Positions 22,202 through 25,000 of a DNA stretch of 49,746 nucleotides are shown piece by piece (the first letter of the stretch is position 1; every line of letters starts with the position of its first letter). The translations under genes and the position numbers were made by a program. The stretch is taken from contig JAKFUF010000157.1 of NCBI GenBank assembly GCA_021732845.1, forward strand, positions 1 through 49,746, in the 5' to 3' direction. Source of the stretch: Planctomycetaceae bacterium. GTDB taxonomy: Bacteria > Planctomycetota > Planctomycetia > Planctomycetales > Planctomycetaceae. Under the pieces are notes generated by a model that was not told the DNA's origin, did no database searches, and saw only the letters and a program-made list of their open reading frames with translations.

Positions 22202-22344
22202 CGCTAACTTCATGCCCGCCAACCAAAAAACGTTGATCAATATTGTTGGGGTTCGTAGTGCAAAGGCCCGGATCCACCGAGACAAGCTCGGTGGGGTATT
22301 CACGAGGTTGCACGGTTGACGCGAAACGAAGCGAGTTTTCCGCG

Positions 22345-23310
22345 ATGCTCCAAACTTCAGCCCATCCCGTGAACGGTCTTCGCACCGAGGTTCACGCGCC
22401 GCCGGCTGAGGCACACTGGCTGTCCGGTGTCCGGCTGTTGTGCGTCGACTCTCAGCAGCGGAGTTCCATCAATCTGGCGCTCCAACTGGATGCGGCGGGC
22501 TGCATTGATCCTGAAATCCAGTGGGTGACCTCCGCCGCGGACGCCCTGTTCGCGCTGCGTGAGGAGAGTTTTGACTGCGTGATCGTGGGACGGCTGTCCG
22601 AGCAGGCTGAGCCACGGGAGTCGCTGGAGTTGCTGCAGAGCATCCGCATGGGTGGGTGCGACGACCCGCTGGTGGTGCTGGTGTCCGGGGCGGCGGATCT
22701 GCTGTGGGGCGAGTTCGCCGAGCACGAAGCGGAACTGCTGACGGCCCCCGCCCGCTGGGAATCGCGGTCGCTGCTGTCGGTCATTCGGCGGGCGATGCAC
22801 CGGATGCAGGTCCTGCGCGAGAACCAGCGGTTTCTCGCCGCCGAACGGCAGCGGTTGATGCGCGACCGCGACGAGGCCGAACACCTGCTGCATCAGCAAC
22901 GGCAAATCTTGAGCGAGCTGGAACAACTGGCCTCCGGCACGGGGCTGAGCCCCCAGCGGCCAGGCCCTCTGGCGAACTTTGCCCCATCGTCTCTCCCCGC
23001 CCGTCCGCAACTGCCACCGGAACTGGGAGCCTATTATCAGGAGTTGCTGCGGAACTATGTGATCATGGGGACGGGCAGCCTGGCGGGTGAAATCTCCAAG
23101 CTGGCGAACATGCTGGCCGACGCCGACGTGAGTCCTGGTCACGCGCTGGAACTGCATCTGCAGCATGTGGAACGGCTGGTGCTGGGTCTGGGCAACCGCA
23201 GCACCCGGCATGTGATGGCCCGCGCCGACCTGTTGGCCCTGGAACTCGTGATGCGGCTGGGTGAGTGCTATCAGGCGCGGGCATCGCATCGTAGCCGAGT
23301 CACTCCGTGA
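22345..23310 (+). CDS. Degenerate receiver-like protein with coiled coil
   Basis: Protein of 321 residues from the ATG at 22345; a TTG at 22243 would add 34 residues. About 22-140 reads as a response-regulator receiver fold (LSGVRLLCVDSQQRSSINLAL ... AADALFALREESFDCVIVGRLSE ... ESLELLQSIRMGGCDDPLVVLVSG). The phosphoacceptor position appears as CVIVGRL rather than DLxLP, and the N-terminal acidic pair is reduced to one Asp, so phosphorylation is doubtful. A coiled coil follows (AAERQRLMRDRDEAEHLLHQQ) and a helical C-terminal domain. The last five residues, SRVTP, and the stop codon lie inside the first REP hairpin of the repeat array, so the array has replaced the natural end of this gene. Confidence 0.7.
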   Translation: MLQTSAHPVNGLRTEVHAPPAEAHWLSGVRLLCVDSQQRSSINLALQLDAAGCIDPEIQWVTSAADALFALREESFDCVIVGRLSEQAEPRESLELLQSIRMGGCDDPLVVLVSGAADLLWGEFAEHEAELLTAPARWESRSLLSVIRRAMHRMQVLRENQRFLAAERQRLMRDRDEAEHLLHQQRQILSELEQLASGTGLSPQRPGPLANFAPSSLPARPQLPPELGAYYQELLRNYVIMGTGSLAGEISKLANMLADADVSPGHALELHLQHVERLVLGLGNRSTRHVMARADLLALELVMRLGECYQARASHRSRVTP

Positions 23311-24225
23311 CTCGATCGCGATCTCCTTTCATGCACCGATCGAATTCAACAACCAGGCCGAGAGGCCAAGCTCGCTGCACGAGCGGGTTCGAGTCACGGA
23401 GTGACTCGCCTACTTGGCAGCGCATCGGAGCCGAGTCACTCCGTGAATCGATCGCGATCTCCTTTCATGCACCGACCGAATTCAACAACCAACCGAGAGG
23501 CCAAGCTCGCTGTGCGAGCGGGTTCGAGTCACGGAGTGACTCGCCTACTTGGCAGCGCATCGGAGCCGAGTCACTCCGTGACTCGATCGCGATCTCCTTT
23601 CATGCGCCGATCGAATTCAACAATCAGGCCGAGAGGCCAAGCTCGCTGCGCCAGCGGGTTCGAGTCACGGAGTGACTCGCCTACTTGGCAGCGCATCGGA
23701 GCCGAGTCACTCCGTGACTCGATCGCGATCTCCTTTCATGCACCAACCGAATTCAACAACCAACCGAGAGGCCAAGCTCGCTGTGCGAGCGGGTTCGAGT
23801 CACGGAGTGACTCGCCTACTTGGCAGCGCATCGGAGCCGAGTCACTCCGTGACTCGATCGCGATCTCCTTTCATTCATCGACCGAATTCAACAATCAGGC
23901 CGAGAGGCCAAGCTCGCTGCGCGAGCGCATTCGAGTCACGGAGTAACTCGCCTACTTGGCAGCGCATCGGAGCCGAGTCACTCCGTGACTCGATCGCGAT
24001 CTCCTTTCATGCACCGATCGAATTCAACAATCAGGCCGAGAGGCCAGCTCGCTGCGCGAGCGCATTCGAGTCACGGAGTGACTCGCCTACTTGGCAGCGC
24101 ATCGGAGCCGAGTCACTCCGTGACTCGATCGCGATCTCCTTTCATGCGCCGATCGAATTCAACAATCAGGCCGAGAGGCCAGCTCGCTGCGCGAGCGCAT
24201 TCGAGTCACGGAGTGACTCGCCTAC
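23291..24225. repeat. Tandem array of seven REPIN-like units
   Basis: Seven units start with GTAG or GGAG at 23291, 23427, 23562, 23698, 23833, 23969 and 24104, spaced 136, 135, 136, 135, 136 and 135 bases. Each holds the hairpin CGAGTCACTCCGTGACTCG (8-bp stem, 3-nt loop) and, about 75 bases on, its inverse CGAGTCACGGAGTGACTCG followed by the complement of GTAG. A hairpin after a GTAG/GGAG tetranucleotide is the hallmark of bacterial REP sequences, and two REPs in inverse orientation make a REPIN. Copy 5 has one mutated arm (GGAGTAACTCG). All reading frames inside the array are artefacts of the repeat. Confidence 0.9.
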
Positions 24226-24899
24226 TTGGGACGTTTCCAGTGCCTATACTCACCCTTCACAAGTCCAGCCAACGGACCGTTGTCCGCGATGTAACGTTGA
24301 AAGCGTTCAAAATGTTCCGCGCTCCGCACCAGATGATCGAAGCTCTCTGGCTGCCAGAACTCGCCGCTCTGGTTCAACGCATTGTTGATCTTTGTGGCCG
24401 TGAACTTCTTCCAGGAGTAGCACTGTTTTTCGACCTCGGTCTTGCCGAGCAATCCAACCAGCAGATGGACATGGTTCGGCATCACGACGAAGTCGCCCAG
24501 GTGATAGCGCTCTCCGTCGAAATGGTGCAGACTATCCACGACGATATCCGCCAGGTTGGGCCGGCAAAGCACGCAGGCACCGTGGCCTTTGTCGAGACAT
24601 TCCTGATATTCCCTCGAGAACGTGGAATGGAACTCCTGTTGCACGGGTTCAGGCAGACGCCGCAATGCAGCCTGCCAATTCGTTGCTCCTGGAACAATGC
24701 GGTGGTGTCGCAGCCAATCATCGCGGCGGCGATACCACAGATCAGCGACCTCCTTCGGCATCGAATCCCCGGTACGAAAGGTGATGAAGTACGTTGCCCC
24801 CGGTTGATACCAGTGCGGCAGGTTGCCGACATCGATCCGTAGATCGCCCGCTGGATCGAACAGGTTGAATTGCATTGGTACCTCAAGTCGCCGAGCCAT
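24222..24899 (-). CDS. REP-associated tyrosine transposase (RAYT)
   Basis: Protein of 225 residues of the Y1 transposase family (TnpA_REP). HUH motif: FVVMPNHVHLLVG, with His 143 and His 145. The single catalytic tyrosine is Tyr 161 in CYSWKKFTATKINNAL. Also typical: the opening HWYQPGATYFITFRT, the GEFWQPESFDHLVRS segment after the Tyr helix, and RFQRYIADNGPLAGL. All catalytic residues are present. Such enzymes nick and rejoin single-stranded REP DNA and are domesticated rather than selfish. The stop codon TAG is part of the GTAG tetranucleotide of the last REP. The ATG at 24899 is used; a GTG at 24920 or an ATG at 24875 are alternatives. Confidence 0.93.
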   Translation of the reverse strand: MARRLEVPMQFNLFDPAGDLRIDVGNLPHWYQPGATYFITFRTGDSMPKEVADLWYRRRDDWLRHHRIVPGATNWQAALRRLPEPVQQEFHSTFSREYQECLDKGHGACVLCRPNLADIVVDSLHHFDGERYHLGDFVVMPNHVHLLVGLLGKTEVEKQCYSWKKFTATKINNALNQSGEFWQPESFDHLVRSAEHFERFQRYIADNGPLAGLVKGEYRHWKRPK

Positions 24900-24954
24900 T
24901 CGTGACTCGAAACCGTTCACGCAGTCGCTGGGTCAGACTGCAGAGTTCGGCCTG

Positions 24955-25000
24955 TGAATGAAAGGATCTCGCGATCAAGTCACCGGAGTGACTCGGCTAC
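24955..25000 (-). repeat. Divergent REP upstream of the RAYT gene
   Basis: Read on the minus strand, this starts with GTAG and matches the array unit for about 46 bases (GTAGCCGAGTCACTCCG, then GATCGCGA and TCCTTTCAT) with a few changes: an extra G in the loop side, one stem mismatch and a swapped dinucleotide. It is a single decayed half-unit beyond the 5' end of the RAYT gene, so REPs flank the gene on both sides. Confidence 0.8.

Follow-up and report, generated by a model that had tools for sequence, protein, structure and literature searches.

Within a 49,746-nucleotide contig (JAKFUF010000157.1, here C57; the whole stretch is referred to as the window) of the draft genome of a Planctomycetaceae bacterium (assembly GCA_021732845.1), the gene of a REP-associated tyrosine transposase (RAYT) lies directly against a tandem array of seven REPINs, each a pair of inverted repetitive extragenic palindromes (REPs). 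This locus is probably a REPtron, with REPs on both sides of the RAYT, in which tandem duplication in place raised the REPIN on the 3′ side of the gene to seven copies. Its elements are as follows.

23286..24228, no strand assigned: array of seven REPIN units of 135/136 bp, the final unit without part of the linker (repeat split, hairpin search).
23291..23413, no strand assigned: unit 1 REPIN, with the outermost left hairpin and the inverted right hairpin both GTAG-tagged (hairpin search, fold).
24202..24225, minus strand: last REP of the array, whose GTAG gives the RAYT stop (TAG, 24224-24222) (sequence).
24222..24875, minus strand: RAYT (Y1 transposase) gene, 217 amino acids from the ATG at 24875 (open reading frame, Pfam/NCBIfam, alignment, profile, fold).
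24884..25000, minus strand: decayed REPIN 5′ of the RAYT, 73% identical to unit 1 (sequence comparison).

Tandem Repeats Finder placed a repeat of 7.0 copies, with a 135 bp period and 95% matches, at 23280-24229; the units begin at 23286, 23422, 23557, 23693, 23828, 23964 and 24099 and measure 136, 135, 136, 135, 136, 135 and 130 bp in that order. Every unit carries the hairpin CGAGTCACTCCGTGACTCG (19 nt) in forward orientation, followed 93 or 94 bp on by an inverted copy, and 12 of the 14 hairpins are exact, with one mismatch each in the left hairpin of unit 2 and the right hairpin of unit 5. The tetranucleotide tag of the right-hand hairpin is GTAG in all seven units, that of the left-hand hairpin is GTAG in unit 1, the outermost, and GGAG in units 2–7, leaving unit 1 as the only REPIN with GT[AG]G at both ends. 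A preliminary description of this DNA had reported seven such units, each with two inverted hairpins preceded by GTAG or GGAG, and this holds, with the refinement that GGAG is confined to the six internal left hairpins. As single-stranded DNA, one REPIN is predicted to form a single long hairpin from its two inverted REPs, with the tags outward (−36.7 kcal/mol, z −6.8, a fold as good occurring in 0 of 200 shuffles), and the fold of the whole array is likewise strong (z −15.7, 20 shuffles).

The array-side transposase is a RAYT by sequence and fold. Its frame is the open reading frame at 24222-24920 on the minus strand, in which the start is likely to be the ATG at 24875; a longer version with a GTG start at 24920 overlaps the 5′ REPIN. 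The gene is intact, as had been described, with the HxH motif and the tyrosine invariant in a 29-row alignment of relatives from which two loci (L113 and L152) were excluded owing to in-frame stops. It matches Pfam Y1_Tnp at 27.3 bits (cut-off 23) and NCBIfam NF047646 (REP_Tyr_transpos) with an E-value of 1.7e-17 and 63.6 bits, against a curated cut-off of 80. The top match of its profile among solved structures is E. coli TnpAREP (4er8, E 1.6e-05), and an AlphaFold2 model (mean predicted local distance difference test score, pLDDT, 84.5) also matched 4er8 best, a REP-bound tyrosine transposase (E 7.9e-07), followed by IS200/IS605-type transposases. Together with the tagged hairpins, these matches support the earlier identification of the pair as RAYT and REPIN.

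The gene abuts the array so closely that its stop codon is the TAG within the GTAG of the nearest hairpin. Such a GTAG-supplied stop was found in 30 of 64 RAYTs and, in the same loci, in 55 of 394 other open frames with 200 amino acids or more, a comparison in which the frames are mechanical and partly spurious and the RAYTs are related, hence not independent; over all loci with a stop, counting the three intact RAYTs of this genome, the figure is 31 of 82. We do not claim this as new, because REPs supplying TAG stops have already been published, as have GTAG repeats in Planctomycetes (PMC3733652). On the other side of the gene the decayed REPIN has GTAG as its outer and GTCG as its inner tag, and the RAYT is flanked by inverted tagged hairpins on both sides.

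A Y1 HUH gene flanked by GTAG-tagged hairpins is also the arrangement of the E. coli TnpAREP REPtron (4er8) and its bacterial interspersed mosaic elements (BIMEs), where three REPINs stand at the gene and tandem BIMEs elsewhere (PMC6006769, PMC2817692). REPtrons and eight TnpAREP groups are described in PMC6006769, and a rayt directly joined to a BIME in PMC2817692. The window RAYT differs from TnpAREP in belonging to a clade of planctomycetes and verrucomicrobia (the fold alignment gives 14% identity), its REPs have a perfect stem without the E. coli bulge, the tags are nearly evenly divided between GTAG and GTTG (133/123 across the genome), and four RAYT loci of the genome stem from one ancestor. 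Among the papers listed by searches of the open literature for RAYT or REP together with the phylum, none was a RAYT-centred study in Planctomycetes.

Evidence that the array arose by duplication in place comes from the units, their junctions and their relatives elsewhere. The units are 93–96% identical to unit 1 and can be told apart at 17 variable columns; units 2 and 4 differ in two columns, units 6 and 7 in one and the other pairs in 4–10, as expected if repeated, recent local duplication was accompanied by exchange. The linker CTTGGCAGCGCATCG would be the right flank of the last REPIN (CTACTTGG) joined to the left flank of the first (GGCATCGCATCG) across a GG microhomology, as would be left behind if one REPIN and its flanks had been duplicated in tandem. 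Elsewhere in the genome, the best near-full-length matches to the array REPIN are 77–78% identical and lie in REPIN arrays on contigs C10, C101 and C63, and a half-length match of 86% occurs at the RAYT locus on C261 (40 of 216 first-look candidates scored). Similarly, unit 1 reached at most 78.4% outside the window when BLASTed against 180 loci of its own genome (0.96 Mb with overlaps counted twice, chosen for their REPs). Within this coverage the REPIN type of the array is not dispersed as a unit, only the hairpin is, and, since no full-length match above 78% was found elsewhere, the dispersed copies are unlikely to have come from the array. The suggestion that the locus is an amplification site is supported in the narrow sense of local tandem duplication, by the likeness of the units and their pairwise differences.

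In the mechanism we propose, the RAYT would bind and nick single-stranded REP DNA guided by the tag, by analogy with E. coli TnpAREP, and may over long times have spread REPs with this hairpin. The array itself would have grown by ordinary duplication, through replication slippage or unequal crossing-over, and later exchanges would have homogenised the units, leaving 2 and 4, and 6 and 7, near-identical.

The hairpin alone is abundant. The 9.25-Mb draft holds 294 exact copies of the 19-nt sequence and none of its reversed control, so that the absence of further copies, which the preliminary description had named as refuting its reading of the locus, was not observed. By tag, the genome has 133 copies with GTAG, 123 with GTTG and 24 with GTCG (controls 0), and the tags are mixed within REPINs, which often combine a GTAG end with a GTTG end. 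When exact tagged sites on contigs C1–C107, the contigs with complete site lists, were grouped at gaps of up to 600 bp, leaving mismatched or otherwise tagged REPs uncounted, 194 sites fell into 89 clusters, 47 of them single and 20 with at least four REPs; four of these 20 lie within 3 kb of a RAYT match and 16 away from the RAYTs found, hence REP clusters are not special to RAYTs. Beyond this genome, the same hairpin is present in five of 296 other genomes of the class (24, 22, 12, 8 and 1 copies). Their RAYT matches are 34–59% identical, and the stretches around those matches (L274-L286) contain the hairpin within two mismatches in no case; one genome, G308, has versions of it at three to four mismatches.

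To set the array in context we used the best 80 of 121 related RAYT loci from a scan of species genomes, mostly of Planctomycetota and Verrucomicrobiota; judged by these relatives of its RAYT, the window is likely to come from a planctomycete. A hairpin common to both flanks was found at 67 of the 80; at these its density is 7.7 per kb in the 250 bp nearest the gene and 0.05–0.23 per kb beyond 1 kb, although the nearest bins are high by construction, since each hairpin had been picked from the 350 bp on either side. Tandem repeats with a period of at least 50 bp lay within 160 bp of the RAYT match at 13 of the 80 loci (hairpins were inspected at 11 of these), mostly with about two copies and at most 4.7; such counts are lower bounds, because a number of contigs end near the RAYT. 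The seven units of the window form the longest RAYT-adjacent array in the sample. The repeats at the 13 loci are on the 3′ side in 11 and the 5′ side in four (L140 and L168 on both), and a preference of arrays for the 3′ side was considered and dropped, REP counts within 1 kb showing no difference by side (mean 1.99 vs. 2.10, Wilcoxon p 0.34, n = 67).

The tandem array beside its own RAYT, which had been called uncommon, accordingly has company in these 13 loci and in published cases (PMC3116915, PMC2817692). In Pseudomonas fluorescens SBW25 there are 16 ordered tandem clusters of REPINs, and each of the three RAYTs has a higher-order cluster next to it (PMC3116915); as here, the tandem REPINs include flanking DNA and adjoin a RAYT, whereas the largest ordered REPIN cluster there consists of four REPINs and one REP, against seven units in the window, although REP arrays of 12 are also known from that strain (PMC3116915). 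At the RAYT locus of Rhodopirellula solitaria CA85 (L152), also with GTAG-tagged hairpins, an 83-bp unit is repeated 4.7 times from 30 bp past the RAYT match, and about 2 kb away on each side lies an array of seven 82-bp copies, but the hairpin is a different one and the RAYT match has a stop within its reading frame. Tandem REPINs can also be lost, as were five of six in an E. coli mutation-accumulation line (PMC8049555).

The window RAYT is not alone in its genome. Open RAYT frames occur on C57 (the window), C58 and C63, with fragments on C101 and C261 and more distant RAYTs besides; the two intact paralogues, from the own-genome search, are as follows.

C58:27468-28106: RAYT paralogue.
C63:41176-41814: RAYT paralogue.

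The C58 and C63 proteins are identical to each other over the matched stretch and 83% identical to the window RAYT; GTTG-tagged REPs adjoin both genes, and each has its own REP cluster. The RAYTs of C57, C58, C63 and C261 form a lineage-specific clade with support of 100/99 and no other row inside, in a tree drawn without L113, L127, L152, L181 and the 29-residue C101 fragment. The right end of C101 (L047) and C261 (L043) would be parts of one RAYT that an insertion element has split, and the two edges carry the same 9-base repeat; the C261 part is also without its catalytic half. Between C57 and C58, DNA likeness of about 80% extends over 821–827 bp from the last REPIN to the first 5′-side REP, beyond which only REPIN units match. 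A segmental duplication is the simpler reading for C58 and C63, because about 2.5 kb including a neighbouring gene is common to both. RAYTs have been described as single-copy and not self-copying (PMC8049555), and multiple copies were not found in another study (PMC2817692), yet this genome has four loci of one clade, two with identical proteins and one broken. Single copy is a usual trait of RAYTs, not their definition. Several RAYTs in one genome are not new, and a possible RAYT duplication is on record for three Pseudomonas strains (PMC3686654), but four of one recent clade are at odds with the usual description.

Two observations weigh against duplication in place without help from the RAYT. 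The first is a junction layout common to the arrays on C10, C58, C63, C101 and C114, for which simple slippage offers no obvious explanation: the right-hand REP breaks off at base 16 of 19 and lacks its tag, three other bases follow, and then comes the eight-base lead of the next unit (AAAG...). Those three bases read GAC at the junctions in C10, C58 and C63 and at one of the five in C114, AAC at the remaining four of C114 and TGA at the single matched C101 junction. The second is that a cluster of at least four REPs lies within 3 kb at all four RAYT loci of the clade (C101/C261 counted as one), more than duplication blind to the RAYT would lead one to expect, and because all four have such clusters the RAYT may promote duplication. 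Loss of internal tags fits the window (internal left GGAG), the C63-type arrays and L109 (internal right tags absent); as a general rule of array stability it was rejected, since L108, L129, L133, L168 and L180 keep intact internal tags.

Among the alternatives to duplication in place, the first to be weighed concerns the array's position between two frames, the second of which is the following.

22243..23310, plus strand: convergent neighbour frame, its final codons and stop inside the first REP; no match in Pfam or NCBIfam (open reading frame list, domain searches).

The array might be kept for a host function, as a double-sided terminator, an mRNA stabiliser or a gyrase/IHF-type (integration host factor) site between convergent genes, which we regard as unlikely. 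It does lie between convergent frames, provides the RAYT stop codon and has a strong predicted fold, and gyrase and IHF bind BIMEs in E. coli (PMC2817692); conservation of the array is, however, not demonstrable, as related RAYTs have other REPs, mostly in few units. An array produced by tandem duplication could in any case also end transcription of both frames.

Rather unlikely, too, is a more direct role of the RAYT as builder of the array, by nicking near the tag and repeatedly transferring single-stranded REPIN circles beside a REP, which would give head-to-tail units. The clusters at all four clade loci and the common junction layout of the five arrays are consistent with this, as is the concentration of the shared hairpin near related RAYTs, where at least three copies within 1 kb occur on the 3′ side at 14 of 67 loci and on the 5′ side at 16 of 67, with few beyond 1 kb. 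The window junction, however, is a flank-derived linker with microhomology and without a tag-defined joint, and 16 of the 20 large clusters in C1–C107 are not near a RAYT found. The left tag, moreover, is GGAG in six of seven units, whereas the E. coli enzyme tolerates no mutation of GTAG; in one Marinomonas enzyme the tag determines the choice of cleavage site (PMC8266576 for both). An assembly artefact, with a copy number made wrong by repeat collapse or false joining, is very improbable: the draft consists of 262 contigs, and in several of them REPs lie no more than a few hundred bases from an end, but the units are separable by their 17 variable columns and the 49.7-kb contig extends beyond the array on both sides. 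Least credible of all is the earlier proposal that the array is the birthplace of the genome's REPs, which the genome-wide hairpin and the many dispersed REPs that match the unit's right end exactly over 29–32 bases would favour, but which the sequences compared (within the 40 of 216 candidates and the 180 loci) appear largely to refute, given a full unit unlike the dispersed REPINs (at most 78% identity over the full length, and 86% over half of it in one match, on C261), the other bodies and often other hairpin spacings of these (113/115 or 138 bp, against 93/94), the GGAG left tags and the three further RAYT loci. Tandem duplication of the 3′ REPIN in place remains the probable origin of the array.

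The same genome holds a lineage-specific, REP-linked family of some 55–60 helix-turn-helix-like genes, which is a lead and not a result on the window, with 63 matches at E 0.001 (fragments included) and 55 at E 1e-5, for example the following.

L214:1600-2832 (C34): helix-turn-helix-like family member.
L231:2679-3929 (C29): helix-turn-helix-like family member.
L041:8482-9801 (C58): helix-turn-helix-like family member.

With three second fragments removed, 25 of 60 family rows have a REP (up to three mismatches) within 1 kb of the matched stretch, several contigs ending sooner, and the share is 17 of 20 among the closest copies against 8 of 40 among the others. As a control, one 20-kb stretch at a set position was taken from each of the 20 longest contigs: among 295 open frames with 200 amino acids or more, 4 had a REP within 1 kb, as did 402 of 20000 random 600-bp stretches; the control consists of contig middles, many family members lie near contig ends, and the matching is imperfect. 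In an alignment, the block that close copies have in common begins roughly 100 bp ahead of the start and ends near the stop, and the DNA before the block differs, often with REPs. A second GTAG-tagged palindrome, GTAGGATGGCCTTCCGAGGCCGTC, provides the gene's stop in 8 of 19 close copies with downstream sequence (L214, L215, L217, L219, L224, L226, L229 and L232), which suggests additional REP families in the genome.

A single-sequence search of 39 relatives at E 1e-5 gave no match to the family, and a profile of it gave weak matches, to the first half, in 7 of 169 further genomes within the taxonomic family. The C34 protein reaches no Pfam family at cut-off, divergent members on C58 and C63 are barely above the cut-off of HTH_8, four members had no match in NCBIfam, and a modest structure model (mean pLDDT 70.9) had no significant fold match in the PDB. 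A phage origin was considered and rejected, with no relative in one single-sequence scan of viral contigs; of four members compared with PHROG, three had no match and the one on C58 matched a group of unknown function (E 2.8e-4). None of the 63 family matches is on the window contig. As a separate observation on that contig, dense short tandem repeats with periods of 12–57 occupy positions 416-857, near the window's left end, and are possibly a repetitive coding region.

On the scale of the genome, REP and RAYT might be a true mobile-element family, in which REP-bounded RAYTs copied themselves to at least four loci, the GTAG and GTTG classes are served by diverged paralogues, and REPs bound and helped to spread some 55–60 helix-turn-helix-like passenger genes; we consider this improbable. 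The array itself documents tandem growth of a REPIN beside a RAYT outside Proteobacteria. The main interest lies in the genome, with its multiplied RAYTs, its split between GTAG and GTTG and its REP-linked gene family, which could be used to test if RAYTs are ever able to copy themselves as transposons do, and if the tag acts as a guide and diverges in step with its enzyme.

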